Position numbers and translations under genes: made by a program. This document shows positions 12,094 to 60,131 of a stretch of DNA of 64,000 bases, piece after piece. Source of the DNA: Chrysaora quinquecirrha (taxonomy: Eukaryota > Cnidaria > Scyphozoa > Semaeostomeae > Pelagiidae). The stretch lies in the NCBI GenBank assembly GCA_014526335.1, contig JACTAT010000009.1, forward strand, positions 992,001 to 1,056,000, read 5' to 3'. Each line of letters opens with the position of its first letter. Positions within the stretch are counted from its first letter, which is position 1. Under the pieces are notes generated by a model. That model did not search any database. It saw only the letters and a program-made list of their open reading frames with translations, and had not been told where the DNA came from.

Positions 12094-15000
12094 TTACCGC
12101 TTTCTACGTGATTTGTCGACCTGTGCATAGACCGGAGGAACTCGTCCTCCAGTCGGATAACCATCCTCATCAAGCTTTGGTTCGGTGTATGGTGGAGGTG
12201 GACGGCGGTTCTCTGGTCCAGCACGGCGCCCGCTTCCTTCGCGGCTTCGAGGTTTGTCACCGTATCCATCCGTGTATGAAGTAACCGCACCGACCGCGGG
12301 ATAGCCGTTCTCGTCTAGCATTACGTCGGCATACTCCGATGGTTCGTTTCTTGGTGGCCGGGGTCCTTTTCTACCGCCTCCTTCGCCGAGTTTGCCGTAG
12401 ATCAAAGTTGGCTTGTTTGGATCGGCATAAGTTGGTTCCGGAGCCTTCGTGTGCGGTTCATCAGCCTAGAAAAAATATCGCGTCAGAAAAATTAGTATTC
12501 AAAATTATACGCCTCCCTGCTGGTCTATAAGGTCTACTGCTACACAATACAGAAAGATTTTTTAATTGGTGTCGACCATTTTCGGCGTTGGAATTCAAGG
12601 CAAAAATCATATAGCTTACACATACTTTTCAAGCGTACCATTTATTCCCCTCCCGAACGCTAGGATCTCAGTATAGTAAGTTAACTAATCGAGACCTTCA
12701 AGACGGAGCGAAGACGGGGGTACAGGTTTTAATACATGCAGCATGATTTGGCCTAACTTTCTTCTGCATGATACACCCTTCAAACCTGATGGTTATATTA
12801 GATTTAACTGGTAAAACAGGAAAGAGCCGGGTGTTGATATGCAGAGCAATAAAATAAAAGCAATGGGATTTTACTTACGCTTGCGTAAACGTTTTCTTTT
12901 TTATTTGCCAAGGGATAACCTGGCTCTCTGCAAGAAAATTTAAACAAAAAATTAATTTCAGCGAAATCAAAGAATTTAGACATTAGTCTTCTTAAGATTG
13001 AGATTCACGCATAGTTATTGCATAAGTCCATGAAAAGAAAGAAGAACAGGCATCTACGCCTAGGTCAAGGACCATGATGCAATCGGCCTGAAATTCAAAT
13101 ATGCTTAGGCCCTGGCCAAGCGACCAAAAATTGGTAGTCAACCAGTTGATATTTGCTTTGCAAGCAATGTTTGACCGTTTGGCAAGGTTGCAAAACATTG
13201 TTGGTTAATAAAATAAGCTGAGTACGCTCCGCAATGATTTTGTATTAGTTGATAAGTATTTTTTGCTTGAGGCAAGCGAAAAATGTTTAACAAGCAATGT
13301 TTTGCGACATGGCCTAAACGTCAACATTTTGCTTGGTAAGCAATTTGAAATGTTTGACAAAAATGTTTTCTCCTTGGAGAGTTCATCCGCAGACTCATTT
13401 TAAAACTTTGAATTTCTAATTTTCACGAATAGACCGACAGGAAGCCTGAGAAGTGAGAACTGAGAATATAGCATAGAGGCTGCAGCTTTGCAAAATATTT
13501 CTTGACTGAAGTAGCTCATCTGGAAAATTTCGAGGGTCAAAGATAGAGGCTGAAATGGCATAGGGATAAAAGAAAGATTTACGAAGATTTCTAAGAGATT
13601 TCTGGCAGGACAACCGGATTTTATGCAGTTATCAAACGGGGATTCATAAAGATGTTTTAGTTCATATATCATGCACGACCTGTCGAAACAGTTATCAGAT
13701 TGCAACCGCTACAAGTTTGGTTACAGTAAGAATATAGGAAGACCTTTAATCTTATCAGTATTTTGCGTCTTAAAGCCATCTGTCTGGCTTATGGTCAGCT
13801 TAGATAAAAATTAGGTAAAGGGACATGCTGTTAATAGCAATGAAGGTTTTTATACACAGCACGACAATGAGTTTTGTACTCGTTTAAACTAAATTAAGAA
13901 TTCTATAGAAGCATCTGTTAGAACGAAGGAATATGATTAATAGCTTGTTTGCGAACCATCTCTTTTTAACGTTAAAAATTTATGGCCTATTTTGAAGTGG
14001 AATCTTACTGAAGAGATATTATCTTAATAAGAATATATGTGAAACAAAAATAACGATAAATACAAACCCCGAATCATTGTCTCTATCCCGGTCTGAAAAA
14101 GAAGCGCAAATAGCATTAAAGACATTTATTTACAGTTAAGCACACACAGAGGGGCTCTTGTTGAATAAGTACGCTTAGCCTACAATCATGGACAAGATTA
14201 TTGAGAAAAACCTAAACTTGCTCTTTCAGTTCGTCTATTTCTCCCCCTCCTCAATGTTGGAGAAACTGTTCAATTAAAATTGAAATTAGCATCTTTCTCG
14301 TGCAGACAATAATATAACACGAAGTCTGTCAATAAATAATCGACACTGCACGAGGGAGGGGTTGGCAAAGACATGGACACTCATCAGCATGTATGGTTGG
14401 GTTACCTGTCTCAATATATTTAGTCCATCATTGTAGAAAGTTTCGAGTTAATTTTGCAAAGAATGTTCCTAAAATGCCGGTATACTATAACAGTATAGCC
14501 ATGGTGGCCTACGTTCTGATTCTAGCGTCTTCCATACTGCTCTTGCTATACAGAAAGTGCTGATTTTGTTAAGAAACCTGCAGATTTTTAAGGAGGTAAC
14601 ACACCCGATTCATGCTATATAATGAAGATGCTAAATACCAAATATTCGATGTCCTAACGTTCTTACAGGCAGTTCAGGCTCACCATAATTAGACATTACG
14701 AATGGAATATCACCGAGAGAGTTTAAGTTTCTAAGGGCACTTTTAAGTTAACTAAGGACACCTTTCTCAAAACATTTGAACACTTTGGGCCAATTAATGC
14801 TTGTTTTGAAAGAATATTTTGTGCTTCTTATGGGAACAATGTATCTGATTGCAAGCTATCAAACAACATATTATGCAGAAAACAAATAATGCGAAGAAAA
14901 GCGAAAACATCTTGAAACATATTGTCGTATGTCAGAGTGACAGATTATGCAAGATGAATAAGTAGCAATTTTATAAGCAAAGAGGATAAGTCCAAGCCTA

Positions 15001-18000
15001 ATTAAAGCTTATGGCTTATTTCGAATAATGAGACAGATGTTTCGTAGGGGATTAAAAAACAGCAAAATTGTTGCCAGTTCTTCTATGTTCAGTGCAAATC
15101 GAGTAGCCTATCTGAGTATCCGTTCAAAACGCGATTCAATCCCTGCAAAAACGTTTTCTGAAAGAGTAGCGGAAACTCAGCATTCAGGCTATATTGGCCA
15201 AGAGGCCTAAGTTTCTGACCATTCCAGAGGCTGTGTTATTTTCTGCTGTTTTCAACGGAACATCGGAACATAGCTAAAACTAGGGAGGGCTTGGCCCTTC
15301 CCAAGGGTAACAGGACAAGTCGGCCAACTACCAAAGTCGAGCCGCCATGTGTTAGACAACTATGCTTGTCAGCGTACACTAAAAGGGCCCACTAAAACAT
15401 AATAAATTGTAGCTACACCTAATTGTAGAAGTAAAATTGTACATTGTTAAAGCGGGGGTTTGGGGACCGCAGTCCCAAATATCCCCACACGTAACAAAAT
15501 AACTAGTAACTATTTAACTAACGTTGTGGGCCGACATTATAACGTTGTGGGCCGACATTATGTGGGGCTGACTTGTCCATAGGGGTGGACCGACTTTGCA
15601 TTGGGTCGAATTGTCTGGAAAGCTTCCCAAGCCTCTGTTCCTAAGATTTCTAAACTACTAAAGATGTATTAAAGTTTTCAAAAAAGGAAAAACCTGATAC
15701 CCCGTTTGCCTCTCTTCATGCAGTACACAACCAATAACACAAGCAACACGAGAGCAACCAGTCCACCAACTGCTCCTCCGACAATTGCACCAACTTGTGT
15801 TCCTGGTGTTGTAGGTGGTCGTGGAGCTAAAAAAAAAACAAATTGAGAATTCAAATGCAAACATAGACAATAAAAGTCAATGACAATAAAAATTAATAAA
15901 ATATACAAACACTAGATTATTCACAAGTTAGGTACATTGTTGCAGCTCTTGGTAGACTTGAGACATCACGCAAGATCTGAGGTGTAAGGCCCTGGCCAAA
16001 CGATCAAACATTGTTTATCAAACATTTGAAATTTAAATATGTCAAGCAAAATTTTTTACCGTTTGGCCAAATTGTAAAACATTGCCCGTCAGAAGTCTTT
16101 TTGCTTACATCAAGCAAAAAAGTTTTTGAAGTTTTTCGAAAACATTGCTCAGCAATTATGCTTCCTAAATAATGTTTTTGGTGTCACCAAACGCTCAAAC
16201 ATTGCTTGATAAGCAAATTTCAAATGTTTAACAAACAATGTTGGATCGTTCCGCCAGGGCCTACTGGTAATATAGAGATCTTCAGGCTTGGCCAAGCGAA
16301 TTCCATACATTATAAGACTTTCGTGTTTAAGCTATGACTAATATGTTAAGAAAGAGGTTCATAGGGTTCATACAACATGAAATATTAGTAAAAGTGAAGC
16401 TACAGCATGACAAATAAAGAGTTTTATTTGTCTGACACATTAATTTGCGTCCTCGGCCAGATGATCAAGCATTGTTTGTCAAACATCTAAATTTGCTTAT
16501 CAAGCAATGTTTGAACGCTTGGCCAGATCACAGAACATTGAATAACAAGCAGAATATGCTGAGCAATGTTTTTGCTTGACTCAAGCGGAAAATGTTTGGC
16601 AAACACTGTTTTCCAACGTGGCAAAATGATAAAATATTGAACTTGATATACAAATTTCAAATGTTTGAAAAAGAAAGTTTGATCGTTTGGGCAAGGCCTA
16701 AGATTTTAAATTTAGAAGTAAACTACAGCAAAGAAATAAGCAAAATAAGCATAATCACCCGAAGTGATAAAAATAATAGAGGAGAACAAAACATAAAAAG
16801 AGTGCCTTTTCTTAGTTCCTTTCTTTTTAATATTTGACAGGTCTTGGAAGTGTTATTGCAAAAAGGACAACAGGTCTTAAATATAAAAATAGAGGGTACG
16901 TAGGACTGAAAATCATCTACATATGTCAGAAGTTCTCACAGGTCTGGGTTAGTCTTTAGGGGGAAGAACCTTGAGCAGCAAAGGACCTAGGACTTTCCTT
17001 GAATCTCAGCTATCAAAACTTAAGTTGGTATCGGCATCCTTCATGGCACATTTTTTAAGTCTCAGCCCATAGAATCTTTTGGTTATTAATGCGGCCTTCC
17101 CAAATCTTCTGCTATATAGACCACTTAATGAAACATTTATGTTTCCTGATTCAAAACATAATTTAGAAAATATCCTAATAACAGATGGCTTTGCTTGCTA
17201 TCAACATTTTTCTCCAGTTACAAAAGGATGTATGGGTAGGCTAATGTATGCATTGTGATAGATGAAAACATATTAGTCAATACCTGGTGTTTTTACTGTT
17301 GCTGTTGGTGCATTTGTTTTGGCATTTGTATTTGAAGTACTCTTTGTTGGTTTAGAGACAGTTCGGGTGGACGTTTCTAGAAATTTTGGGATTATTTTTA
17401 GTTTTCTAAAAATTCTTGATTTTTGATTGAAATATTGGACATTTGGAGCGTTAGTAGAGTGTTAGTGCAACAAACAGGTAAGGAACGGCGAATTGATAAC
17501 CATACATTAGTTTATGCCACATGTAAAAACTAAGTCAAATCAAACTCAAGACCATCAAGGGAATAAAAAAGCTCAGGCAAAAGTAAAGCAAAGAAAAAGA
17601 TGAGAAATAAAAGAAAATTAAGATAGGTTAAAATATAAACTTGCAACAAAATGCATGGTGAAAGCAAAGCTTATAAATTTGATTAATTTCTAAATTTACA
17701 GTTGAGAAATGCAAAGTTTGAGCAGCTTGCGGTACGGGTTTGTACAATTGAACTCTACCAATAAAAGTTATTGATCATTAGTATCAGCATACCATTAACT
17801 GAAAGCCCTTTCAATACGTGATAAAGATTTTAATCTTGCCAATCACAAAACATTTCATCCTGCCAGCTCTAACCAGTCATGGGACAAATGTATATTAGCA
17901 CTGTTGTTGAACTACTATGAATTTGTTAGAGACTTGGAGAAACAGAATAAAAACCAAGCCCCTTTGTCCGAACAACTGGCAATAGGAGTTGTTATTCCTC

Positions 18001-21000
18001 TGTTTAGGTGAGCAAAATCAACCCAGAGTAGTGTTTAACTTGCACTGGTAGTTTTTATTCACTGCGAAAGCATAATTGACCCAAAACATAAAAGTAGCAG
18101 CTCACACTGGCACTATTATAGCAAAAAGGATGTTCAGGATCTTTACCATATACAGGTCAAAGCAGAATGAAAATGATATGTAGCTAAAAATACAAAATAA
18201 AAACCTTTGGTTGTAGGAGCACTTGTTGGTGGCGGAATTGGCTTCTCTGAGACACTTGCAGTAAATGTTTCACTTCTCTTTGTAGAGCTCATTTGTAGTT
18301 CAACTTGGGTGACATTAACATTTGATGGTATGCCACATCTGGTAGTTCCTGATTTGTTAATTTCAGTGTTTGTGTATTTAACTGTCCCACTTTGGTCTTT
18401 AAACTTCACTGTATAATTTACATTGCAGAGTCCAGATTCTTTTTTCTGCCATTGAACTTCTACACAGGATTGATTTGGCTTACCAGCACGGAGATTTGGA
18501 TCACTTAAAGACACTACAGAATAAATAAAGTAATCTCACTGCTGGATAAAGAAATTGTTTGAATGAAGTTTAATTCATGGGCCCTTCAGTCAAAGGTCCA
18601 CATCTCTAAAACCATCCTTCAGCCTATCACATGTTTTAATCAAACAAATCATAAACTTTTTGGCATTTCTACTAGGGTTTACATGAACTGAACTGTTGAT
18701 CATCCATTTTACTGCACAGAGTATTAAGTATTTCTAAGCAGCCTATTATTAACATAACTTAAAGACTTCTATTGACTAAAAGGACTTAATGCTTGTGCAG
18801 TTTTTGAAATATTAAAACTATTAAATTTTACAAAATTACTAGGTTGTAAAAAACAATGGCAATTTACAGCAAATAGTAGCACAATCAGCAGGGGTTAAAA
18901 TCAAAAGAAGAATGAATGACAAATTACAACAATGGATCATTTCGTTATGACATCACACAGCATTAACATTTTTCAAAATTACATGATATCGAGTTTCTGA
19001 AAAGAAAATCTTATGAAGCAGCCAAAACTTAGTCTGGGTACAAAGTTTCACTGTCCTGGCGCTTTTGTTCTTAATTTTATGAGCATTCAAAGTTCCCGAT
19101 TTCATAAAGGCTTTGACCGCAAAAAATAAACTTGGTGAAACTTTTTACCCCACATGGTCAAAGCCCTTATAAAATCGCGAACTTTGAACGCTAGTTAAAT
19201 CGATTGCACACACGCTGAGATAGTAAAACTTTGCACCTAGACTAATTTTTGGGTGCTTTATACGATTTTCGCATCAAAAAATTGATATCTTGCAATTTCA
19301 AAAAATTTTTTTCTACCGAAATGATCTATAAGTTGAATCAAGACAAAAAACAAGCTGATTTTGCAACTATTTGCTGCAACTTACAATTGTTTTTTACCAC
19401 CTTGATCTGTAAATTCTTTGAGTAATTTTCTAAAATTTAAACTGATGATGATCACAGGATGATAGAAGCATGTCTTTGAAACTAAAAAATGTTGTTCTTT
19501 CTGTCAAATTTCTGACAAATTTGTTTATACTAAAATCAAACTATTAAGCGATGAGATAATATAATACTTACATAAAACAGTTACAGCTATGGTAATATCA
19601 GCAGGTTTCCCAAAACTATTCTGTGCAGTAAGAGTCAAGGTTTTTCCACAAAAACTGGAAGCAATTCGATTTACAGAGTATTCTGCCCGGTAAACAAATG
19701 GTTGTTCTTCGTTCAATATTAATGGTATTGTTGCACTTGCATCAGACCATTGCACTGCAGCACTTGGCTTAGGATTTCCATCCAGACGTGTTATCACTGA
19801 CATTACATTATTTTCAGAAACTTCCAGGTTTGTTGAAGGTGAGCTGAGAAATTCTGGTGCACCTGTTAAAATCAAGCAAAAAGCAACCATTGCTTTAGTA
19901 TTATTGATTCAATTTAACATGGTGTTTCATAAAATATGTCAAAGAATACAGTACATACAATAAGAAAACAAAACTATTTTACTAGAACCATGAAAATTGT
20001 GCCTTGAACCAAGAAAGACTATTGTAATAAACTTTACATAGACTATTTGCCACAACACTTACCTTCAACAGTTAGAGTTACCTCTGGCACTAATGGAAAT
20101 CGTCTTGGCAAAGGTGTACCACTTACATCTACAGAAACATCTGACTGAAACTTTCGCAAGTTATCACCATATTGCAGATCTTGTATACTGAGTGTATCAT
20201 TATTGGGAAATGCAATTATTCGACCAGCAACAGAGCTTGGCAAGTTACTTGAAACAGCCATCGAACCACTTGGTCCTTTTTTGTCTGCTATTATAGAAAT
20301 GTTATTCATGTATGTATCATTGACTATCCAATGCTGCTTTCCAAAAGTAATAACATTACTAGGTCCAGCTAATGAAAATTTCCAATGCAACCAGACTGCA
20401 GAATGTTTCAAGGCTATGATAGAGCTTGGAGATGACAAAGCTTCATTTGGAATAACTGCTTCTGATGATGCTGGAAAAGGAAATAAAAGTTAAGTCATTC
20501 ATCTTAACAGTAGCGTGACAATGGGACAAAATTTCTTTTTCACAGTTTTTTATGGGATAATCCAGCAAAATTTGTGTTTTTCTCATATTCAAAGTTTGAA
20601 ACCTTGAAATGGGCCAAAGTTTACAATAAGTGCATGAAAAATCCAAAACCACTGCCAAAAGGGGCTTGTTGAGTGAGTTCAAATCAGACCTTGCTTTAAG
20701 GGAGTTATTGAGCGATGGACTCTGAGCTCCCCCCTGCAGCTGCACAAAAGAGAAATGATACATGTTTTTTTATAAGAAAGTTTTTTTTGGGACAGTATTG
20801 AACTTTCTTTCCATGTTTTCAGTACCAAAACTTTCTTGTGACTTTCTTAGCAAACATTTTGGAATGCAGTATTTCTAAGAATGCACAGTTAAAGGCACTG
20901 TATACATCGCACAAATACCACGTTTTTCAAAGAAAATAATCATTAGACTCGTTTAATAGCAAGATGAACGAACAACTGAACAGAAGAGCGAAAATAACAT

Positions 21001-22625
21001 ACAGAACATTAGGAGTGAAAGTATGAAACAAAACTTTCTTAAGTTTTTGAGACGTTGAGCACTACTTTCTTATAAATCACTTTCTTATAAAAAAAACGTG
21101 TATATGGTTTAGGGGGCACTATGATTTTTACCAATGGATAACTTGTGAGGAGATCAACCAAATTTCCAAAGCAACATAGTCAAGAGGCCTGTATTTTGAA
21201 TGTTTTGAATTGAACAGTTTTCGTTTTTTATGCAAGTTCATCTCATCTAATAAATTTTTGACATTTTCGAGGATTCGAAGCACAAAAATGTTGCTGGATG
21301 GATTACCCCCGCAAGTAATTTGAAGAGGTCAAATTAGATGATTTGTCTTCTGCGACCCAACGCACTTATTTTTTAAACATTTTTCGCGTTTTAGCTGATT
21401 TTTTTGGGTGCATTGTCCATGCCATCGCCAAGCACACTGCCATTTGTGGTAGGAAAGTGCCCTTGAGTTTTGTCCAACAAGGCAAGGTCTGGACCACGTC
21501 AAAAAGCAGCATTAAAATGTTGTGCGTCCAAAGGGATTGGATAAACTGAACTAGATTTCAACCTACCATTCACACAGTTGAGCGTAAGTAGACAAATTTC
21601 CAAAAAAAGTATGACGCCAAATGAAAAGATTCCGTCTTTATTCAACTTTACAAATTTCAAGCAAGGAGCCATCATGACAGAGACAGACAATGGCGGGTTT
21701 GCAAGGAAACTGCTAACTGCTTAGGCCTTGACGAATGACGAGCCCAAACAAATAAATTTTCTTCAATGATACGAAAAGCCAAGCATTCAAAATGTTCTTT
21801 TAGTTGTTCATCATTACTATTCAGATTCAGATTCAACGGTATCAGACCAATTCTATCTTGTTTTGGACCCACAGATCTTTCAAAAACACTACCGATAATT
21901 GACCAAACCCATATGAAGCACAACTCCACAATACGATTGCGATTTTTAAGTTCTCTGCCCCGTCCTAACCGTAGCCGCAATCAAAGAATAGGCCGCAACG
22001 TGGTTGACCGTCATTTCCTTGTTGCCGCTGTACGGAAGAGCCGACATTAAAATTTGCCATTTGAGTTGTGAAAGTGAGTCTTTCTTTGTTTTTTTTTTTT
22101 ACCTTCTTGTGTCTTATTAGGTTTATAAATGCTTTTATGATCTTTCGTTCAAAATTCAACAAGTTAAATAATTTTTTTGCTATTCAAGAAGTGCCAAAAG
22201 AAAGAAGGTGTTCTTGGAAAATTTTCCCAAGAAAAGACATTTCCACCATTTCATTTTGTCTATGGGTATGCGGTTGAACCTTTTTTTGAAAATTCATTCA
22301 ACTCCTTCCATTTTTCCCCGACGATTTTAAAGAAGAAACTTGGAGCACGTTTTAGATCCATTTGCCTATCACAACATTTTTTTTCTTACAGTAAGGTATT
22401 AATTAAAATTGTGTAAATCTGAAAAATTGTCTACTATACTTTCCTTCAGACACAGATAACTTGTCGCATTGTATAAAATGACCTAAATCATTCAATACTC
22501 CCTAAAGTTATTTAAAACAATAAAAGAAACTTACTTCCATTAATTTTTACGCCAGCTACACAAGGCCACAACATTGCATAAATTCCAAGGAAGAAGAGAG
22601 CCGGACATAAGCTAATTTTAACCAT
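12094..22625 (-). CDS. Receptor gene A: Ig-like/Fn3-like type I membrane protein with ITIM-like tail (581 aa)
   Basis: Exons, 5' to 3' on the minus strand: 22625-22535, 20470-20063, 19862-19572, 18513-18205, 17376-17284, 15826-15694, 12927-12879 and 12465-12094. All joins keep one frame for 582 codons. Layout: signal peptide 1-30; V-like Ig domain to 166; I-set-like domain to 263 (FCGKTLTL, AQNSFGK); Fn3-like domain to 366 (CVEVQW); Thr-rich stalk to 397; transmembrane segment within 398-442 (AIVGGAVGGLVALVLLVLLV), then a KRGKRG stop-transfer; Pro-rich tail to 581. The tail carries ITIM-like LIYGKL (Tyr481) and SEYADV (Tyr503), VYAQV (Tyr571), a PPPPY motif, and two LDE-N/D-GYP repeats. It is probably a cell-surface recognition or adhesion receptor that recruits SH2 proteins. 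Ligand unknown. The layout resembles cnidarian Alr proteins. Introns are long and carry MITEs. Confidence 0.85.
12655..12702 (-). repeat. Fragment of SINE family 1
   Basis: The phrase taggatctcagta...agttaactaatcgagacc matches the 3' part of the SINE copies at 46851 and 53350. Only the 3' end remains. It lies in an intron of gene A. Confidence 0.6.
13108..13378. mobile_element. Harbinger/Tourist-type MITE, copy 3
   Basis: The left end ggccctggccaagcgacc follows TTA. The interior has the family's aaacattg and caatgttt words. The right end is degenerate, so the boundary is approximate. Located in gene A between the transmembrane and first tail exons. Confidence 0.65.
15534..15562. repeat. Direct 21-bp tandem duplication
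   Basis: aacgttgtgggccgacattat occurs twice back to back starting near 15520, in the intron of gene A just 3' of the transmembrane exon. It looks like a replication-slippage duplication. Confidence 0.75.
15988..16261. mobile_element. Harbinger/Tourist-type MITE, copy 4
   Basis: Starts ggccctggccaaacgatc after TAA and ends gatcgttccgccagggcc before TAC. At 274 bp, with clear terminal inverted repeats and internal aaacattg words, it is one of the best-preserved copies. It sits in an intron of gene A. Confidence 0.8.
16451..16698. mobile_element. Harbinger/Tourist-type MITE, copy 5
   Basis: Begins cctcggccagatgatcaag and ends gatcgtttgggcaaggcc before TAA. It lies only about 190 bp from copy 4, in the same intron of gene A. 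Confidence 0.7.
20761..21100. mobile_element. TA-flanked MITE, family B copy 2 (ACTTTCTTA word)
   Basis: Begins catgttttttttataagaaag and ends ctttcttataaaaaaaacgtg, with TA on both sides. Its middle is the reverse complement of the middle of the copy at 41377-41747, so the two are the same subfamily in opposite orientation. Located in intron 1 of gene A. Confidence 0.85.
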
Positions 22626-23160: not shown

Positions 23161-25038
23161 CTAACACGTCAGCCATGAACGTACAGTACGTACTCTAAAA
23201 ATTCCCAGACTTTGATCAAACAGTACGTATGGCTTGGGGGGCTGGGCCAGTTGTTTGACATGAAAGTGAGGCCATAGTTTTGCTGACTCAGCAGTGCTAG
23301 CTTTCGTTCATTGTAGCGCAGACTCTACTCTTTTTCAGCCACGAAGCCAAGAGAGTGCGCAGGAGGCCTTGCCCCCACCCAAAAGATAAATTTTTGCCTC
23401 TCTTTGCCCATCCAAAAATTAAAGGATGAACCAATGTTTTGTTTGAAAATATATGCTTGGATTGAACTTTGGGGACTTTCCAACTACGAAGTATGACCTA
23501 ACTCTCTTCAGAGACGCAACCAGGGTGGATCAAATAGTTGATAAGAAACAATGTGATGGTTTTCTAGTCTTTCTACCCGATATGAAATTTAAAAAAGGGC
23601 GTTTGCGTTTCCCCCATTTTCTGCCAAAGTAATGGGCGTGGTCGCTAAAACTTTTTCCAGGGGAACTGCCTTCAGTCCCCCCAGATCCTATTCCCGAACC
23701 CCAAATCTTTGGCACTGGCTTCGTGCCTGCAATTTTCAGTTTGCCTATATGAACGATATTGAAATTGGATATGGAGGTGAACAATCACATGTACTGTGAA
23801 GTCTGTCCAAGGGCGCCGTTTTAACACAGGAGTGTGCGTGTTATGTTTTTGGGTACATTTTTTTGCCAGCAAGCCATTTTCCTGGATTTGAAATTTTTAA
23901 GTATACCTCCCGCATTAAGGGTAAACAAATTTTCCGCTCTGGATTCTTTTGGGCTCGATTATTACGATATATCAAATTATTCTACTTTTGACACAAATAT
24001 GACAAAAACGACAACCCTTCTCACTAGCCCATCTCTACATGAAAATCGCCATCCATTGTTTTGGGAGAAGATAACTCGTGAACTCGTGACACTAATACTT
24101 TTGGGTGCAAAATTTTGGGTGAAGCGCACATCACTGTGTGGCAATGTGGTCACTATCCCCCGGGGACCTCACACTCTCCATTTTTGTCTAAACGACAAAT
24201 TAAATTCGATTCTTAAAAATTGTAACTCATCTGGTACGATTTCTATTGATGTTCAGTACAAATTAAATTAAATTGTTGATCCTTCATCTTCTGATTAAAA
24301 TAATTGCTATTCATTGGCGTAGGATAAACATATAGGGTAACGACTCAAAAAGAAGACTGGGTAAGCTGAATTGAAATTTAAATAAATGAACGTTTGAAAT
24401 GAATTCAATACATTTTTAAAATAAATAATGCTTTCTACATGTGAGTAGATTTAGAGTACTAGAATAGAATAGTCTGCAAAAAATTGTCTTTTTTACTGAA
24501 TAGATGGTATCGAATTGTTATAGGTGTATATAAATATTCTAAACATTGTTTTTAAAAAGTCATTAATTAAGTCTACGTCAAAGATAGTATGTTTCTGAGA
24601 GTCACATGCAGCATGCTCTATGGCTCTGAGATTTGGTCCCTTTTTGTTTCTTCTACAGTGGCTGAGTTGGCACTCTTCGCTTTCAGTTGCAGGACAGGAA
24701 TTGACTCTTTTCTTGACTTCCTATAAAACAGCAAAGAACTTTGAAGACCCAGCTTACGTATTGGAATCCCGGTGGGGGTACTTGTCCAATCTTCGCCTAA
24801 AACGTTATAAAAGGGCGTGTTTCCTTATACATACTAATTGATTTCTGGGTGAAATGTATGATTATAAGAGGTTACGATGGAAATTAAAGGGATAGCTTGA
24901 AAAAATTTGGACGGAAACCCCTTTTTGAACGAATGTTCAGAATTAGAAATAAAACCGTACCAAGTGAGTAAATAACTTAAGATACTGCTAGATACCTTCT
25001 AGCAAAAGCTAACACAATGAATGCAAATAATGAAAAAC
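23161..25038. other. Region between gene A promoter and the 3' end of gene B
   Basis: This segment should hold the cytoplasmic-tail exons of gene B, but none could be recognised on the minus strand. A minus-strand open stretch around 24500-24729 follows a possible acceptor, but has no tyrosine motif and no support. The only long plus-strand frame is 23834-24271. Confidence 0.45.
23834..24271 (+). CDS. Unrecognised 145-codon open frame
   Basis: An open frame of 145 codons, long for this AT-rich DNA, lies between genes A and B on the opposite strand. No signal peptide, membrane segment or known motif is visible. The C-terminal part (VVTIPRGPHTLHFCLNDKLN) looks more protein-like than the N-terminal part. 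It could be a fragment of a transposon or virus-like element, a small gene, or chance. No function is claimed. Confidence 0.25.
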   Translation: MRVMFLGTFFCQQAIFLDLKFLSIPPALRVNKFSALDSFGLDYYDISNYSTFDTNMTKTTTLLTSPSLHENRHPLFWEKITRELVTLILLGAKFWVKRTSLCGNVVTIPRGPHTLHFCLNDKLNSILKNCNSSGTISIDVQYKLN

Positions 25039-46850: not shown

Positions 46851-46998
46851 GCTGTGGCGTCCTGGCATAATCCAGCTCGCTCGTTGTGTCTGTGGCTCAG
46901 CGAGGTCGGGGTTAGAGCCCCAGCTACGGTAGCGTCACAGCCAGGGTCGGGGTCTCGATTAGTTAACCTACTACTGAGATCCTAGTGACTGGTGTTAA
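46851..46998 (+). repeat. tRNA-derived SINE, family 1 (plus strand)
   Basis: The head ctgtggcgtcctggcataat is followed by a box B-like ggggttagagcccc and a body ending gattagttaacctactactg, then agatcctagtgactggtgttaaa. A second full copy is at 53350-53508 in the other orientation. It lies in the intron of gene D. Confidence 0.75.
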
Positions 46999-47439
46999 AA
47001 CATCAATTCACCTTCACCTTCTATGTTGCGTCGCGGGTACTGGAAAAAACTATATCCTATTAAAATCACATTGGATACTTACGTACAACGTCCACATACG
47101 TTGTGACATCAGCAGTTCTGCCAACGGCGTTTTTAGCTCTGATGGACAAAGTCTTGCCACAATAGCTTGAACTAACGGGGTTTAGTACATAAGTTGCATT
47201 GTACATAAACCTTTCCTGTTGCTCTTTAACGGCCATTGAATTGTTAACGTCTGATTGAGACCATTGGAGTTCTGCAGTAGGCTGTGGATTGCCATCAAAG
47301 CGAGCAGTCACCTGAAGCTGGCTATTTTCAGCAACAGATATATGATTTTGCGGAATTGACTTGAATTCAGGCGGACCTAGGTATTGTCAAAAATAAAATT
47401 TTATGAGTTCATGAGAAAATTACAAAAGAGCGAAGACTT

Positions 47440-47535
47440 ATCATCACCCCGGGCAATGTATGTGCAGTACAGTGGAGGATATATGCAGTAGAGTGGCGGA
47501 TATTCAGTATAATGGAGGGATATCATCGGTACAGC
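47440..47535. repeat. Decayed foldback-arm fragment
   Basis: The phrases catcaccccgggcaatgtat, gtgcagtacagtgg and cggatattcagtataatgg are diverged versions of the arm of the foldback element at 48834-50653. It is a solo arm remnant in gene D, between V-like and I-set-like exons. Confidence 0.65.
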
Positions 47536-48833
47536 TAAATCTGTACAGGGAGATGCGGCTTACGTGAAATACTTTAGTATTACCATGCTATAGAAATACT
47601 TTACTTGCCTCTGACAGTAACAGTACAGATGGGTTTCAAGTCATACGTGATGTAACTTGAGCTGTTGGTCTTTCTCGCTTTAACTCTTGAAGAAAACTTA
47701 AGCCGCTCTGTATCACTGTAGTATGAAGTAACTATCATGAGCACGCCATCACTCTTTGGACCGAGATAAAATCGACCAGCCAGGGAATCAGGTAATTTAC
47801 TTGCGGCTATTGCCACTCCATTTTCCCCATTCTGGCTAGCAATCATTGTTGTTGTGTTGCCTTCTGTTAAGTACCATTCCTGAATGATGTGCTGGGCGTT
47901 GATAACATTATAACTCCACAAAAAGAAATATGCTTGGCCTTTCTTGTCGACAGTTCTGACTTTTTTACAAGACTGTGATTCAAGTGGCCTTATAAGTGTT
48001 TCACCTAAATAAGAAACAGGAAATGAGGTCGTTGCGTCGATGAAGAAAATGAACATCGCATAGAAATGAAAGTGAAAATTAATATGAAAATGGACATTAC
48101 ATATCTGTCGACTTAGTACACTCATTTATAAGAAACCTTTCATAAGAAAATACACAAGCCCTTTTGGTGAAAGTCAAGAAAATCTTCTTGGATAGACTAG
48201 AAGGGCAACTAAAATCTAAGAAACGAAGCCCGTTCAGCAAATGCTCTCCGTAAATCCGTAGATCCTCGAATAAGCCACCGGGTGCTTATTTTCATAAATA
48301 AATCTTATGGTGGGGGTTTATATGGGTTCAATACTGTCTCATATAGATGCAACCAAATTTGGAACTCAATTCCCTTAGAAATAAAAAATGCCCCTACATT
48401 AGATATATTTGAGAATAGAATCAAAACTTTTACGAATTTCAAATGTACATGCGACTTATGCAAACAATACATTCAAAACGAAAGTTATGTTTAACTCTAT
48501 TCAAAGTTTTTCTTCTTTTTTACCAAATTTATGATGCTATTACTTGTTAGTTTGGCTTTGCATTGTTAATTTAAAAGTTTTAGTTAGTTGGTTTAAATTA
48601 GCTAAAAATTTGTTAATTTTAAGCTATAGTGCTACCAACTTTAAAGAAAGAAAGAAAAAAAAAGAAAAAAAAGGGGATGCTTATTTGAAACTTCAATACA
48701 CGTTTTTTTTAATGAGAAAGTGGTTTATAAGAAAGTAGTGCTCAACATGTTAAAAACTTAAGAAAGTTCAATACTGGATTCTTTAAAATTAAGAAAGTTC
48801 TGTTTCATATATTCACTCTTAATGTTCTGGTAT

Positions 48834-50653
48834 CACCCCATGTAATGTCTGTGCAGTACGGTGGGGGATGTGCAGTACGGTGGCGGATGTTCAGTACGGT
48901 GGGGGGATACCATGATTGCCGTGGGGAGGCATCTTGCAGTACGGTGGGGGATGTTCAGTACGGTGGGGGATACCATGATTGCCGTGGCGGATATTCAGTA
49001 CGGTGGGGGATACCATGATGACTATGGGGGATACCATGATTGCCGTGGGAGGCATCATGATTGCCGTGGCGGATATTCAGTACGGTGGGGGATACCATGA
49101 TGACTGTGGGGGATACCATGATTGCCGTGGGAGGCATCTTGGAGTACGGTGGCGGATGTTCAGTACGGTGGGGGATACCATGATTGCCGTGGCGGATATT
49201 CAGTACGGTGGGGGATACCATGATGCCTGTGGGGATACCATGATAGCCGTGGGGAGGCATCATGATTGCCGTGGCGGATATTCAGTACGGTGGGGGGATA
49301 TCTCTGAGTACGGTGGGGGATGTTCAGTACGGTGGGGGTAAAATATGATCTTATCAACTAAATCATCGTAAATCAGAGACGGGGGCTTCAGCAACAATCG
49401 TCGAGCCTTTTTCCATTTCAAGCGTTAATCTTAGCTTCTCGAAGCAAATTTGCCCTAGCTTGTGTTATCTATTTCGGGTTCCCAAATGGTTTTGACATAC
49501 ACGGCAACATGAACGAATAGCTATCCGCTGAATCTACGTTTTTGTAAATTATACTTCGAAAACCAGGTGCAGGACTCTTATACGAAGCCATCACTAAAAC
49601 TCGTTCGCTTATACCTTGCTCTCACTATGCTTAGAAGTTTGTTCACAGAACACCAACTAAAAAATAATTTAACAACTGCAAGTAAAAGATCACTTTCAAT
49701 TGATTCTAAAAATGGAACCTTTTGTTCAAAATATGCGTAAATTTGACGAATATATTCTAAATGGGACTCAGTCAGTTTCCTTCAATGGCATTTTGTTAAA
49801 ATCTTGTAAGACGAATTTTCCTTCAATGGCATTTTGTTAAAATCTTGTAAGACGAATATTACAAGTATTTGCAACTTTTTAATGCACCCCACAATGTAAA
49901 GCTCTTCAAAGAAAACAAATTGTGTGATTGTCATTAGAGCCACTATTGGAGAGGTTGCGTTACACAAACGTCTATGTTACCGAGGTACGCGATCTTGTTT
50001 CGTTTTGAAGTTTTCTAAAGCTTCCCAGCAAATAATCGTTAAAATTGCATTTGCCATAGCAAAATTATGCATGAAATGCTGTACTTTAATCAGTTAAAGC
50101 ATCTCTTGTGCATACTAGCCTTTTTATTTGTTGAAATTTTGATCTATTCGTCAATCTGCAAAGTAGCCCTTTAGCACTTTGGTAATAGAAAAATGAAACA
50201 AGAAAGTTTGAGTAAATTGAAGAAACGAAGTACTTGTATCCTACTTGGATCCCATCGAGCTTTAAGATTAACGCTTGAAATGGAGAAAGGCTCGACGATT
50301 GTTGCTGAAGCCCCCGTCCCTGATTTACGATGGTTTAGTTGATAAGATCATATTTTACCCCCACCGTACTGAACATCCCCACCGTACTCAGAGATATCCC
50401 CCCACCGTACTGAATATCCGCCACGGCAATCATGATGCCTCCCACGACTATCATGGTATCCCCACAGGCATCATGGTATCCCCCACCGTACTGAATATCC
50501 GCCACGGCAATCATGGTATCCCCCACCGTACTGAACATCCCCACCGTACTGCAAGATGCCTCCCACGGCAATCATGGTATCCCCCCACCGTACTGAACAT
50601 CCGCCACCGTACTGCACATCCCCCACCGTACTGCACAGACATTACATGGGGTG
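48834..50653. mobile_element. Foldback transposon with minisatellite arms and 5-bp duplication
   Basis: The ends are caccccatgtaatgtctgtg and its reverse complement cattacatggggtg. They are flanked by ggtat at 48829-48833 and ggtat at 50654-50658. Both arms consist of tandem cagtacggtgggggat-type repeats with ccatgattgccgtgg variants, followed by about 100 bp of unique sequence repeated in inverted form (up to about 49438 on the left and from about 50257 on the right). The left arm is about 600 bp and the right about 400 bp, differing in repeat number. The roughly 0.8-kb loop has no coding potential that I can recognise. Confidence 0.9.
49781..49860. repeat. 40-bp direct duplication in the foldback loop
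   Basis: ttcaatggcattttgttaaa followed by atcttgtaagacgaat occurs twice in tandem in the loop of the foldback element. Confidence 0.8.
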
Positions 50654-51122
50654 GGTATGTTATTTTCGCTCTTCTGTTCAGTCGCTCAACTTGCTATTAA
50701 CCCCTATTGAACGGGTATTATGATTATTTTCTTAAAAAACGTGGTATTCGTGCAATGTATACAGTGCCTTAAACAGTGCATTTTTAGAAATATTGCATTC
50801 TAAAATTTTTGCTAAGAAAGTCACTAGAATATTTTAGTACTGAAAACATGAAATATATAAGAAAGTTTCAATACTGGCCCAAAAAAAAACTTTCTTAAAA
50901 AATTAAAAACGTGTAGTCTAATAATGGGGGGAGGTCAAAAGAAGGCACTTTTCGTTGCATGTTGCTCTCTTCAGCTATTTAACGTTCCCATCGTGATGGG
51001 GTACAATAGCCTACAATTAGTCTAAGTAAGCTTTAATAAGAAACTTATTTTATTGTCGTGTACTCACCGGAAACAATTACAAGCAACAGAAAAAATATCG
51101 CCAAAATGAGAACGGTCTTCAT

Positions 51123-52683: not shown

Positions 52684-52951
52684 TCATTTTGTCACGTTGA
52701 CGTTCACATACTGAGTATCAGCAACTTTAGCTTTCTTTTCTGCCGCCTTTGTTAATGTAAGTGTAGAATACATCGGTTCATAATCACATCTATGGGCACT
52801 GAGTTCCATATAGTTTGATTCCATTTCTGGAGCAGGCTCTTTCTCTAAACTCCTATGAGTGGGAATGGTTATATATTATTCAAAGTCAGTTGGATCACAT
52901 CACATGAACAAAATCAAACAATTTGCACGAACCGTATTCAGTTGAATATAA

Positions 52952-53210
52952 AGCACTGGCCAAACCAACAAACATTGATGGTCAAACATTTTCAAATTTG
53001 CTTTCAACGCATTTGTCCACGTCACAAACATTGCTTCACAAGTAGAATCTCTTATAAATGTTTTGAAAAATCAAAAACATTTTCTGCTAATACCAAGCAA
53101 AAAATTTTTGCCGAGCAATGTTTTGTGATGTGATCAAACGGTCAAACATTGTGCTTGGCAACCAAATTTCAAATGCCTGACAAACAATGTTTAATCGTCT
53201 TGCCAGGGCC
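52952..53210. mobile_element. Harbinger/Tourist-type MITE, copy 8
   Basis: Starts agcactggccaaaccaac after TAA and ends aatcgtcttgccagggcc before TAA. The interior has the family's aaacattg words. It lies in the intron between the 31-nt and tail exons of gene E, the same intron as copy 6 in gene C, at a different spot. Confidence 0.8.
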
Positions 53211-53349
53211 TAAGCCTATTTCAGTTTGCATCAGCAACAGTATGGGCAAGAATGCAACTTAGAGGTCCCTAGCTACTTATATTTGCGGCAATCAATTTGT
53301 ATTTCAAGGAGTCATCCAAACATTGCAGATTTCGCTAAGGTGAAATGGT

Positions 53350-53508
53350 TTTTAGCGCCAGTCGCTAGGATCTCAGTAGTAGGTTAACTAATCGAGACCT
53401 CGACCCGTGGCCGTGGCGCTACCGTGGCTGGGTTCGAACCCTGACCACACTGAGCTCCTGACACCACGAGTCAGCTGGATTACACCACGACGCCACAGCT
53501 ATACATTT
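53350..53508 (-). repeat. tRNA-derived SINE, family 1 (minus strand)
   Basis: Read on the minus strand it starts ctgtggcgtcgtggtgtaat, has box B-like gggttcgaaccc and ends cctagcgactggcgctaaaa. It matches the plus-strand copy at 46851-46998 over the whole length. Confidence 0.75.
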
Positions 53509-53814
53509 GCTAACTCAGACTTTTATCCACATTGAAACAATAGAATAAATTTTTGTTCAGCTTACCTTTCCAATACTGACATCTGCATAATTTCTCCTAA
53601 GAAGCAAAAGAGCAAGAATCGTATTCATCGAAGTATTGAAGTTTTTCTACAGACCGCTTCAGACAGTTGGATTATTGGGTCTCTGATAATGACCGGGCAA
53701 TTATTGTTTCTAAATTTTTGAAAGCAATACGTTTATGGCATCTTGACGTGAACAATTTTGGGTATAAGTTAAATAACCCGAGCCTACAAAAGGGAGGTGA
53801 CTGGTTGCAATTAA

Positions 53815-54061
53815 GGCCCTGGCCAAACGACCAAACACTGTTTGTCAAAGCATTTGAAATTTACTTCTCAAGCAATGTTTGACCGTTTGGCCGTGTCGCA
53901 AAAAATTGTTCGTTTTGATTTATTTCAAACACTTGCGCAACAAATTGAGTTTGGAAACATTTCTCAAGCAATCTGTTGTGAAATGGCCAAACGGTCAAAC
54001 ATCGCTTGTGAAGCAAACCTTAGATGTTTGGCCAACGATGTTTGATCCTTTGGCCAGGGCC
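53815..54061. mobile_element. Harbinger/Tourist-type MITE, copy 9
   Basis: Starts ggccctggccaaacgacc and ends gatcctttggccagggcc, flanked by TAA on both sides. This 247-bp copy has the best-preserved terminal inverted repeats of the family. Confidence 0.85.
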
Positions 54062-54486
54062 TAATGCCGAATACCGAATGTATCGACGATACATATCGAC
54101 GATACAGTATCGTAATATCCAATACCTAATAACTACAATGGCTGTCGAAAGTGTTGGAACGCCTTTGCTGATATTGTAACAGGAATAAACGTCTGTTACA
54201 TCAGAGTAATTCACGATGAGACACTACTCGAACTGAGATTAAAGATTGACTAATAATTATATTGTGAGTTACAGTATATATACAAGTGCAAACGAGGCTA
54301 AAGATTATGTGCATAATTAGAGTGCATAATTAATCCTATCACAGTCCATCCCTTCTACAGAAAAAAAAGAAAGAAAGTTCTTTTTTTACGTTAGTATAAG
54401 GTTAGCAACTAAATGGCTAAATTTAACAAAATAAACAAACAAGAAGGGTAAAAACAACATAAGGACTAATATACAATGCAATTACA

Positions 54487-55068
54487 CTAGGTAACATCTA
54501 ATCCGAGTCCAAAAGACGGAATGATAGTCAACATCGGTGATAACGATGAATTCACTTGAGGAACATCAACAGTTGAAGAGCCAATCGGAAAAGAGCTATT
54601 GTTCATCACATCGTGAGAACATTTCGGAGTATTGTTAACAACGTCCATTAGGATGTGTCTGTTGGTAGCAACAGCCAAACTTTGAGTATCCAACCCAAAC
54701 GACGAAGAGGGGGGTGCTTCAATTTCAGAAATTTTCCCTTGGACTTCTTTAACAGATTTAACTAAGTTTTCCATCATCTTTGACAATCCATTGAAAACAT
54801 CGAAAATTGGCGTCGGCAAAACATTTTCTTGATTAAAAATACCATAAATATGGTTGAAAGCTTTGCATCCTGATTTTGAACAAATAATGCAGGAATGATA
54901 TCTGCCGCGAATACATATATTTGAATCTTCTTCAAATTCGCAAGGAGAATGACCAAAGCGATTAAAGTCACGGCAAACATTGACATCGTGAAACTTTGTA
55001 ATACGTTTCAAACATGTATTCTTAAAATGTCCTTGTCCTTTGCAATAGGTACAAGAGTAAGTTGCCAT
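54487..55068 (-). CDS. Zinc-knuckle gag-like protein of the LTR element (193 aa)
   Basis: The only open frame of the LTR element. Residues 6-19 (CTYCKGQGHFKNTC) form a perfect CX2CX4HX4C zinc knuckle, as in retroelement nucleocapsids. A second Cys/His cluster follows (residues 32-71: CRDFNRFG…HSCIICSKSGCKAFNH), similar in style to the Cys/His modules of metazoan retroelement gag-like proteins. The C-terminal half is low in motifs. The probable role is binding element RNA for packaging. No protease or polymerase domain. Confidence 0.7.
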   Translation of the reverse strand: MATYSCTYCKGQGHFKNTCLKRITKFHDVNVCRDFNRFGHSPCEFEEDSNICIRGRYHSCIICSKSGCKAFNHIYGIFNQENVLPTPIFDVFNGLSKMMENLVKSVKEVQGKISEIEAPPSSSFGLDTQSLAVATNRHILMDVVNNTPKCSHDVMNNSSFPIGSSTVDVPQVNSSLSPMLTIIPSFGLGLDVT

Positions 55069-55399
55069 ATTAGATTCAAGTCCGACAATTCAAAGATAAA
55101 TTAATTTCGATAAAAAATATTCGACCAAGTCCAGTTCTGTTTAGTTCTGTTTCAGTTAAGAGGACCGAAAACAAGAAACCAACAAAAACGACCAGATTCA
55201 CCAAACGGGAACTGTCTTTATATATAAATATAGAACGTACGATTTCAATCACAAGCATCAACCACGAACGGGAGCTTTAAACAGCAGATGTCTCCAATAT
55301 TACGAGAACAATCTATATTTGAACGTATTTGAAATAACGACGAAAAACTCACGGTATATCCCGGATAAGCACTAACGCTTTGCTGCAACTTTGAAAAAA

Positions 55400-55535
55400 A
55401 GCCAGATTCTTCAACATTTATAACAGAGAAGGTATGAAGCACATCGAAACATCAGATTCTCCACCATTTGTGACAGGAAAGGTACGAATCACAAGAACGA
55501 CTCCGGATTCTCCACCATTTGTAACAGGAATAAAC
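55400..55535. repeat. Tandem repeats running into the 5' LTR
   Basis: The phrase agattctccaccatttgtgacaggaaag-like occurs three times (about 55405, 55462 and 55506, spacing about 50 bp). The last copy continues into the LTR end tgtaacagg. The primer-binding-site region has therefore been amplified. Confidence 0.7.
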
Positions 55536-55924
55536 GTCTGTTACATCAGAGTAATTCACGATGAGACACTACTCGAACTGAGATTAAAGATTGACTAATA
55601 ATTATATTGTGAGTTACAGTATATATACAAGTGCAAACGAGGCTAAAGATTATGTGCATAATTAGAGTGCATAATTAATCCTATCACATCAAATTTCCGC
55701 GTTCTTCAGTGGGTCACTAAACAGTGTGCTCTGTTCTGTGTTGTGCGCTTATGTCCTTTTTGTGTTCGAAGAATTTCGAACACATTGGTGTGGGGTGGCG
55801 TGTCACTAACTAACTAACTAACTAACCAACGCTTGAACAATGGAAAACGTGTAACAATAGGGCCTTTGTCAAGAATGCCATTAGGGCCATTGTCTCGGCC
55901 ATTGATGCGCAATTTGCAGTTGGT

Positions 55925-56367
55925 TTTTCACAATGCACTTTTGTCAATCTGGGGTCATGTGACAATTGTTCTTCCATGACTCATATTTGTTTACGCAAAA
56001 TTCGATGGCAAATTGCCACATTGGTAAAATTGAAATAAATTAATGACATTTCAAACATTCTCATCGTCGATAATAGAGTCTGGGCAAGAGCGGCAATTTC
56101 AAAACAGTTTTCAAAGCAAATCGTCATCATTATCATCATCGTCATCATTATCATCATCGTCATCATCATAATCTTCATGATCACTATCACCACCGCTACA
56201 ACCAGAATCATGATGATGATGATCGGTCATCTTCATAGCCATCATCACCATCATAATTATCATCATTGTCATCATCGTCATCGTCATCATCATCATCACC
56301 ATCACCACTATCACCAGCTCTACCACCAGTGTCATGATGATGATGATGATCAATCATCTTTTAAGGC

Positions 56368-56398
<31 letters not shown>

Positions 56399-56946
56399 TA
56401 CATTACCATCACTATCATCATAATCATCATCATCATCATCATCATCACTATCATCAGCGCTACCACCAGCGTCATTATGGTGATGATCAAGCGGCCTGCA
56501 TGCATTTTTGTCAATCTGGGGTCATGTGACAATTGTTCTTCCATGACTCATATTTTTTTACGCAAAATTCGATGGCAAATTGCCACATTGGTTCTATTAA
56601 TGATATTTCAAACATTCTCATCGTCGATAATAGAGTCTGGGCAAGAGCGGCAATTTCAAAACAGTTTTCAAAGCAAATCGTCATCATTATCATCATCGTC
56701 ATCATCATAATCTTCATGATCACTATCACCACCGCTACAACCAGAATCATGATGATGATGATCGGTCATCTTCATAGCCATCATCACCATCATAATTATC
56801 ATCATTGTCATCATCGTCATCGTCATCATCATCATCACCATCACCACTATCACCAGCTCTACCACCAGTGTCATGATGATGATGATCAATCATCTTTTAA
56901 GGCCATCATCATCATCATCATCATCATCATCTACATTACCATCACT

Positions 56947-56986
<40 letters not shown>

Positions 56987-57290
56987 CTATCATCAGCGCT
57001 ACCACCAGCGTCATTATGGTGATGATCAAGCGGCCTGCATGCATTTTTGTCAATCTGGGGTCATGTGACAATTGTTCTTCTGATACTGGCTTGCTTCCAT
57101 GACTCATATTTGTTTACGCAAAATTCGATGGCAAATTGCCACATTGGTTCAATTAATGACATTTCAAACATTCTCATCGTCGATAATTGAGTCTGGGCAA
57201 GAGCGGCAATTTCAAAACAGTTTTCAAAGCAAATCGTCATCATTATCATAATCTTCATCATCATCATGATTACCATCACCATCATTGACG
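55925..57290. repeat. Triplicated block of about 550 bp with CAT-rich arrays
   Basis: The phrase caatctggggtcatgtgaca starts copies near 55945, 56511 and 57051. Each is followed by caaaattcgatggcaaattg and then long (ATC/CAT)n and (ATG)n tracts. Open frames here are simple His/Met/Ile repeats without meaning. The block lies in the gutted part of gene E. Confidence 0.9.
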
Positions 57291-57304
57291 GTGTGGCTGC
57301 GGCA

Positions 57305-57560
57305 AAATCTAAAGGAACGACACCAGCACCACAATCGCCCCTACAACCATCACCATGACCACCCCTATCACCACCACCACAACCACTCTTACAACCATCA
57401 CCACGACCACCCCCATGACCACGACCACAACCACCCCTACAACCATCACCACGATCAGGCCTATCACAACCACCACATAATCATGACCATCTCTATCACT
57501 ACCAAGACTAGCACCACCAATAGGGCCAGGACTAACATCACCAACATTATCCACATAATC
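57305..57560. repeat. ACC/CAC-rich low-complexity tract
   Basis: Imperfect repeats of accaccaca and accaccccta type follow the CAT arrays. The encoded His/Pro or Val strings are low complexity. Confidence 0.8.
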
Positions 57561-57756
57561 ATTATCATCCTTGTGCACAGCGACAAACCTCGTTCATCAT
57601 TTCATCGAAATGGCCACCATTAACCAGAGTCGTTCTTCGAACATGCCCATAGGGCCCCTATGTTTACTTATCTACCACCATTCAAACATTGCATTAAGCT
57701 GCTTATTTCTTCAGTTTTCGTCAGTTATAAGAGAGTAAAATTCTTCATTCAACATA

Positions 57757-57860
57757 CACGTTTTTTATAAGAAAGTGATTTATAACAAAGTAGTGCTCGG
57801 CTCCTCGAAAGTTTAAAAAGTTCAGTACTGGATCTTTCAAACCTAAGGAAGTATTTAACT
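57757..57860. mobile_element. Family B MITE fragment (left end)
   Basis: Starts cacgttttttataagaaagt after TA and keeps the first aagaaag words. The right end is missing. Another right-end fragment with gaacttgcttataaaaattg lies at about 58895-58925. Confidence 0.65.
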
Positions 57861-58161
57861 TTTATTCTTCTTGGGCTAAAGATTTTCTGTATTTGACTCC
57901 ACTGAGATTGAAATCTTTGACCTGTAAGTTTGTTGATGTTTAAGTCCATTCAAGGACGCATTTTCTGTGAAATTTCTGGAAAATCGCTTAATATGAAGTT
58001 GTAGATAGTTAATTCATGAAGTAAATGCCCATGAACAACAATAAAAAAGCAGAAAATCAAAAACACTTACCTAATACGAAATTTGGTGATACGCATAAGG
58101 ATAGTAGCACAATTCTTGTAAATCGAGAAACTATGGATTTTGTTCTCTGAAAATGATGCAT

Positions 58162-59618: not shown

Positions 59619-59652
<34 letters not shown>

Positions 59653-60090: not shown

Positions 60091-60131
<41 letters not shown>

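Follow-up and report, generated by a model that had tools for sequence, protein, structure and literature searches.

A tandem array of Ig- and Fn3-like receptor genes with two classes of tyrosine-motif tail in the scyphozoan Chrysaora quinquecirrha

What kind of receptor system is encoded by a run of related, partly decayed genes in a jellyfish genome, and does it belong with the allorecognition genes of Hydractinia, as an initial annotation had suggested? The genes lie in a 64,000-nucleotide stretch of Chrysaora quinquecirrha DNA (contig JACTAT010000009.1, positions 992,001 to 1,056,000; hereafter the window), between position 12094, the end of the gene A stop codon, and position 58161, the start of the gene E signal exon. 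Rebuilt exon models bore out the annotation's proposal of five tandem receptor genes (A to E) with immunoglobulin (Ig)-like and fibronectin type III (Fn3)-like domains, every recognised exon being on the minus strand, with exon order and phase shared across the genes. The proposed mixture of intact and damaged members also stood, with the same copies in each class: A and C have uninterrupted reading frames from start to stop codon and B, D and E are damaged, giving two intact and three damaged genes in 46 kb. The array is a real and informative receptor gene cluster, and its main point, passed over by the initial annotation, is that the cytoplasmic tails fall into two classes. The predicted order of parts is signal peptide (sp), V-like Ig domain (D1), I-set-like Ig domain (D2), Fn3 domain (D3), transmembrane segment (TM) and a tail with tyrosine motifs, short cytoplasmic exons being denoted cy1 and cy2.

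Gene A, 12094-21672, minus strand: intact, nine exons, 592 amino acids (aa), all splice sites GT-AG, one open frame; long tail with two motifs resembling the immunoreceptor tyrosine-based inhibitory motif (ITIM).
Gene A exons, 5' part, minus strand, open frame: sp 21567-21672, D1 20063-20470, D2 19572-19862, D3 18205-18513.
Gene A exons, 3' part, minus strand: stalk 17284-17376, TM 15701-15826, cy1 14068-14092, cy2 12879-12927, tail 12094-12465.
Gene A tail exon, 12094-12465, minus strand: LIYGKL and SEYADV (ITIM-like), PPPPY and PPVYAQV.
Gene B, 25039-31129, minus strand: open frames in the ectodomain exons; TM-like exon not in phase with the preceding exon.
Gene B exons, minus strand: sp 31033-31129, D1 29816-30259 (GC donor), D2 28341-28649, D3 25941-26252, TM-like 25039-25144.
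Gene C, 32953-37166, minus strand: intact, seven exons, 486 aa, one open frame; tail resembling the immunoreceptor tyrosine-based activation motif (ITAM).
Gene C exons, minus strand: sp 37085-37166, D1 36498-36899, D2 35923-36213, D3 35481-35813, TM 34632-34799, cy1 34091-34121, tail 32953-33106.
Gene C tail exon, 32953-33106, minus strand: YMEL-x10-YATL.
Gene D, 38765-51122, minus strand: damaged in D3; ITAM-like tail.
Gene D exons, minus strand: sp 51068-51122, D1 47609-48004 (GC donor), D2 47083-47376, TM 42424-42555, cy1 40949-40979, tail 38765-38954.
Gene D D3 remnants, minus strand: about 44044-44175 and 43317-43475.
Gene E remnant, 52684-58161, minus strand: signal 58071-58161, cy1 53566-53596, tail 52684-52852 (YMEL-x10-YSTL, YVNV).

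Phase 1 joins the leader, D1, D2, D3 and TM exons, and the cy1 exons of A, C, D and E exit in phase 2. Gene A carries two additional exons, a stalk between D3 and TM and cy2, for which no counterparts were found in C or D. The splice sites used in A, C, D and E are GT-AG, except for GC-AG at D1 of gene D, and the ectodomain exons of gene B are GT-AG as well but with a GC donor for D1; both of these D1 exons (29816-30259 in B, 47609-48004 in D) have a GCAAGT donor where A and C have GT. The gene A exons matched their copies in B, C and D with E values from 9e-6 to 1e-79 (tblastn), and gene A matches an external 611-aa protein, P0001, from end to end (E 3e-114, 41% identity), an alignment over 97% of gene A that supports its exon order.

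The homology searches were word-based and scored about 8000 candidates each. With gene A as query, P0001 was the one relative among the matches listed, while P0001 as query found at least 27 proteins including itself: 7 from the scyphozoan Rhopilema esculentum (NCBI), 2 from EukProt and 18 from JGI, which denotes a data source and not a species, and in which some rows may be chimeric assemblies. The Rhopilema loci (LOC135684468, LOC135682951, 952, 953, 954, 957 and 958) are annotated as uncharacterized proteins, and six of the named loci are listed with one 128-kb contig. These Rhopilema and JGI relatives belong to the same family, with the D1-D2-Fn3-TM order and both tail classes, but differ in that their ectodomains are 29–56% identical to those of window genes A and C among the compared pairs. 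The 611 codons of P0001 come from contigs no longer than 3044 bases, against a 9.6-kb span for gene A, which suggests a spliced transcript; the relatives of gene A are thus probably expressed as RNA. A profile search with a 12-row alignment recovered one known member among the matches listed, and a literature search gave no publication titles on this scyphozoan receptor family among its listed matches. Two JGI proteins, P0019 and P0024, carry other Ig-like sequence ahead of the same D2-D3, representing either domain shuffling or chimeric assembly.

The tails were surveyed in 31 rows, comprising the 27 database proteins and genes A, C, D and E, and the tyrosine-motif tails described in the initial annotation held at motif level in these four genes, none being found in B. 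A long tail (156–162 aa) with two ITIM-like hexamers was present in four rows (A, LIYGKL/SEYADV; P0001, LIYGKL/SDYADV; P0002, LIYGRL/SDYADV; and Rhopilema P0008, VVYGKL/SNYADV), and the tail exon of gene A, like the long tails across lineages generally, is 48–54% identical to its counterparts. A shorter tail with one ITAM-like YxxL-x9/10-YxxL motif was present in ten (C, D, E, P0004, P0007, P0017, P0018, P0020, P0022 and P0025); a further ITAM-like motif visible by eye in P0016, where no TM was called, was left uncounted. Both classes recur in three lineages, namely the window, Rhopilema and JGI. Six of the ten ITAM-like tails and all four long tails were shuffled, and the ITAM-like motif arose in 0.1–2.3% of shuffled versions of the six (0.25% for gene C).

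By alignment and tree comparison, the ectodomains are grouped by lineage and not by tail class. The ectodomain of gene A is 30–56% identical to those of the other ITIM-tail genes, and pairs of opposite tail class within one lineage reach, for D1/D2/D3 respectively, 78/86/88% (Rhopilema P0008/P0018), 90/81/76% (JGI P0001/P0004) and 44/63/81% (window A/C). A 25-row ectodomain tree combined 21 of the 27 database proteins with window genes A to D (D as D1-D2 only), leaving out P0005, P0009, P0011, P0019, P0024 and P0027 as fused, truncated or domain-shuffled; its Rhopilema group comprised the 7 NCBI rows and P0022, a EukProt protein placed there by likeness. In this tree each lineage is separated from all others by a single branch (supports 100/98, 99/98 and 100/99), and forcing the four ITIM-tail ectodomains into one clade costs 630 log-likelihood units and is rejected, in the presence of long branches. 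The same clade was rejected in a 12-row set restricted to clear tail classes, without window B and D and with the long-branched P0025 kept (approximately unbiased (AU) test, p 1.9e-7 for all domains, 1.5e-4 for D1, 4.6e-6 for D2 and 3.3e-4 for D3), and every single-domain tree joins window A with C at 100/100.

The leaders, compared in 8 of the 18 JGI proteins, form two classes, one of P0001, P0002 and P0009 (61–74% identity) and one of P0003, P0004, P0006, P0007 and P0011 (56–100%), with z values of 16–35 within classes and -1.4 to 4.6 between them. Among these eight rows the closest D1 crosses the leader class for all three class-1 leaders (P0001-P0004, 91%; P0009-P0007, 80%; P0002-P0006, 76%), and leader and tail class agree in P0001 and P0002 versus P0004 and P0007, so that leader and tail seem to be markers of the gene and the exons between them common across genes. 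Between window A and C, synonymous divergence (dS) falls from 1.13 in D1 (bootstrap 0.74–2.08), which is near saturation, to 0.48 in D3 (0.30–0.73), a fall that is consistent with a later exchange of D3.

We read the array, with a probability of about 0.6, as a cluster of type I membrane receptors that evolves by birth and death and works as a paired ITIM-like/ITAM-like family, a refinement that is better supported than a simple hypervariable-allodeterminant reading. If gene conversion or unequal exchange acted on the ectodomain exons alone, the ectodomains of both classes would stay alike, and this would be retained because the two tail classes would need to bind the same kind of ligand. Engagement of that ligand would lead to tail phosphorylation, upon which the long tail would recruit SH2 phosphatases or adaptors and damp the response and the short tail would recruit SH2 kinases and drive it, such that the balance of long and short tails would set a surface recognition response to self/non-self, a pathogen or a neighbouring cell. 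The tail motifs are our basis for inferring that the tails are phosphorylated, recruit SH2 proteins and have opposite outputs. The paired-tail pattern is the most interesting and most testable feature of the array.

KIR and SIRP are paired receptors of vertebrates. In the accessible parts of PMC2832619 and PMC5701461, vertebrate CEACAM1/CEACAM3 and Siglec-11/16 are described as bearing related ectodomains on ITIM versus ITAM-like tails, kept alike within species, a likeness attributed to gene conversion, and the former source reports a like pattern with ectodomain conversion for CEACAM1 and its ITAM-bearing relatives; the array differs in being cnidarian and in combining non-canonical Ig with Fn3 domains, and the signalling sign is here read from motifs alone. 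Excerpts of PMC12065747 state that candidate allorecognition genes of Hydractinia bear ITAM and ITIM motifs and that its genome encodes the signalling molecules associated with them, and also describe the Botryllus fester co-receptors (FcoR), Ig superfamily (IgSF) proteins with ITIM or hemITAM tails at a histocompatibility locus, which differ in their V-sushi-C2-C2 architecture and chordate origin.

Several observations weigh against a paired family maintained by ectodomain exchange. Neither tail class was present in 17 of the 31 rows, several of them truncated, P0012, P0014 and others carry a TM with a different tail, and the window holds one intact gene per tail class. Shuffled versions of the four long tails reach two ITIM-like hexamers in 1.1–3.4% of cases; given the shuffle rates, a single tail is weak evidence and recurrence in three lineages the stronger point. 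The ITIM pattern used, in which position -2 may be S, I, V, L or T, is found as well in 8 of 10 tails of the ITAM class (C, E, P0004, P0007, P0017, P0018, P0020 and P0022), and the class names are therefore a description of sequence and not of signalling sign, the inhibitory or activating sign being inferred from motifs only. For P0001 versus P0008 the tail identity (51%) is about that of the ectodomain (53/53/55%). Lineages are poorly resolved in the single-domain trees: in D3 the Rhopilema rows do not form one group and window A/C stand beside Rhopilema P0008 (72/61), the D2 tree pairs the two JGI ITIM genes (90/85), and the closest D3 of P0001 is that of P0002, likewise an ITIM gene. Leader and tail were both readable in four of the eight leader rows, and the Rhopilema ITIM-tail gene is listed with a different contig from the ITAM cluster. 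The ectodomain likeness could stem from exchange of tail exons instead, and the JGI rows concerned may be chimeric assemblies.

As to the proteins themselves, A and C are predicted from hydrophobicity and exon order to be single-pass receptors, each with a signal peptide and a TM, and the Ig-like and Fn3-like folds proposed for the array were upheld by structure prediction, the Ig domains being non-canonical in their cysteine counts. The D1 Ig fold was seen solely in a three-domain model of P0001, and D3 of gene A (18205-18513), modelled alone, is predicted to have an Fn3 fold. In an alignment (A1) of 18 of the 27 database proteins, D2 gave a weak Ig_3 match in 11 of 18 rows and I-set in 10 of 18. 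Of 25 rows, D1 has no cysteine in 18, one in 6 and two in a single row; D2 carries a lone cysteine in 24 of 25 rows and D3 three or more in 24 of 24, and the family lacks the B–F strand cysteine pair of a canonical Ig domain. The odd cysteines in D2 and D3 could allow an interdomain or intermolecular bond. A PDB sequence search with gene A alone matched only TM segments; in a PDB profile search the matches were Ig domains of titin, MDGA1 and other proteins and fell mostly on D2 (best E 7e-4), while a single antibody light chain aligned to the last part of D1 (E 0.06).

With this anatomy in hand, the suggestion that the cluster is of the Alr type can be divided. Its anatomical part stood (Ig/Fn3 folds, non-canonical Ig, tyrosine tails, whole and broken tandem copies); a simple hypervariable-allodeterminant reading has observations against it. 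According to the available portions of PMC11067881, PMC11876637, PMC11999971 and PMC12065747, Hydractinia Alr genes are likewise clustered cnidarian IgSF genes with pseudogenes and ITAM/ITIM motifs, and have V-set/I-set domains to which the predicted V-like D1 and I-set-like D2 may correspond, and an excerpt of the preprint PMC13119343 mentions homology of Alr across cnidarians (manuscript in preparation); both points favour an allorecognition complex here that is polymorphic and homophilic, controls fusion and rejection and is orthologous to the Hydractinia allorecognition complex (ARC). The conserved long two-ITIM tail and the cross-class ectodomain likeness seen here go unmentioned for Alr in the consulted portions of PMC11067881, PMC11876637, PMC3276163, PMC11999971 and PMC12065747. 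Against such a complex, the ratio of nonsynonymous to synonymous divergence (dN/dS) was below 1 in every comparison of window paralogues with defined dS (it was undefined for three pairs with gene D), so no positive selection was seen by dN/dS among them; the positive selection on Alr V-set residues reported in the part of PMC3276163 available concerns alleles, while our comparison concerns paralogues. Similarity was lowest in D1 for all 3 window pairs and for 23 of the 28 pairs within the Rhopilema group; of 78 JGI pairs only 18 showed this, the other 60 having another domain least similar, and D1 hypervariability is accordingly not upheld in general. The matches listed in the homology searches, whose sensitivity is limited, included no protein named Alr, and the lack of an Alr entry among the structure matches listed is uninformative either way. 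Most scyphozoan polyps are not known to form fusing colonies, which also speaks against such a complex, and we hold it to be unlikely.

A second alternative holds that the within-lineage likeness arose not by conversion but by tail reattachment through exon shuffling, or is an artefact of assembly or gene prediction. JGI P0003 and P0004 are identical in leader and D1 and differ in later parts, as a chimera would, and P0005 and P0011 resemble fused models. The window genes, however, were taken directly from genomic DNA, the NCBI Rhopilema rows have annotated-genome gene identifiers, and the D1 domains of P0001 and P0004 are 90–91% identical and not 100%, so that we consider this explanation quite improbable. 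Similarly poor odds attach to the view that these receptors serve ordinary adhesion or guidance (IgLON-, nectin- or DIP/Dpr-like), with tails that tune adhesion: matches to IgLON, DIP and nectin ectodomains at 10–17% identity show fold and not kinship, the third domain of the array genes is Fn3, and lineage-wise expansion, broken copies and cross-class ectodomain likeness would be unexpected for conserved adhesion genes. Chance similarity is ruled out by the exon-level conservation together with an external full-length relative, and a viral or bacterial source is not supported, the genes being spliced and animal-type with Rhopilema matches and a scan of viral contigs having found no relative of the array genes.

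The paired-family interpretation admits a bolder form, which we advance only tentatively as doubtful: a natural killer (NK)-type system outside the Bilateria, corresponding in scyphozoans to the Hydractinia allorecognition complex. In it, an expanding set of ITAM-like activating receptors and one or two conserved two-ITIM inhibitory receptors would recognise a single shared self ligand, and conversion of ectodomain exons would hold the two sets in step. If true, paired stop/go self-recognition would be older than bilaterians. Conversion-matched pairs of activating and inhibitory receptors are known from vertebrate immunity, and the same evolutionary signature would here be found in a jellyfish on Alr-like non-canonical Ig receptors, which would make the origin of the ITIM/ITAM balance directly testable in animals without adaptive immunity and would extend candidate recognition loci past colonial hydroids. 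Part of the array's story may soon be published, judging from the accessible text of the Alr-homology preprint (PMC13119343, 2026).

The damaged copies differ in what they retain. The TM-like exon of gene B is open but its start misfits the incoming phase, and an earlier assignment of a frameshift there was dropped. A tail candidate at 24618-24720 (minus strand), a tyrosine-free open stretch after an acceptor-like AG, failed when its frame was joined, and a guessed cytoplasmic exon was dropped for want of a GT after its drawn end. In gene D, the 5' part of D3 was not found in 44.0–47.1 kb, where repeat-like sequence stands in its place, and the remainder is split by a GT-AG interval (43476-44043, minus strand) containing pieces of two repeats (43609-43736 and 43827-43959); D3 is a single exon in A, B and C, unlike gene D, and the extra interval is possibly an intron created by insertion of a repeat into a decaying gene. 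Gene E is the weakest copy, its tail matching that of C at E 0.02, and its assignment rests on common motif, exon phase and position; a relaxed search of 53.6–58.07 kb for D1-D3 or TM remnants gave weak or low-complexity matches only.

Scans for tRNA genes and Rfam families found nothing. On the plus strand at 1131-5654, DEAD-box helicase exons (DEAD 9.5e-15, Helicase_C 7.4e-24) flank the array tail-to-tail with gene A; we take this helicase to resemble DDX51/Dbp6. Within gene E, at 54174-55688, identical 170-bp direct repeats surround a reading frame (54487-55089, minus strand) with zinc-knuckle-like spacing, for which no Pfam match was found; the element looks like a young non-autonomous long terminal repeat (LTR) element, and no target duplication was seen at it by eye. 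Repeats of about 250–280 bp occur in introns and intergenic DNA (5063-5326, 13103-13368, 15987-16262, 16455-16699, 33394-33664, 52949-53214 and 53812-54066), at least two copies being self-complementary in the manner of miniature inverted-repeat transposable elements (MITE-like). Large tandem arrays lie at 39482-40680, 48850-49338, 50358-50633, 59415-60351, 61116-61633 and 63046-63540, with units of 73, about 40, about 40, 4, 84/63 and 25 bp respectively, and those at 48.9 and 50.5 kb carry inverted versions of one motif.

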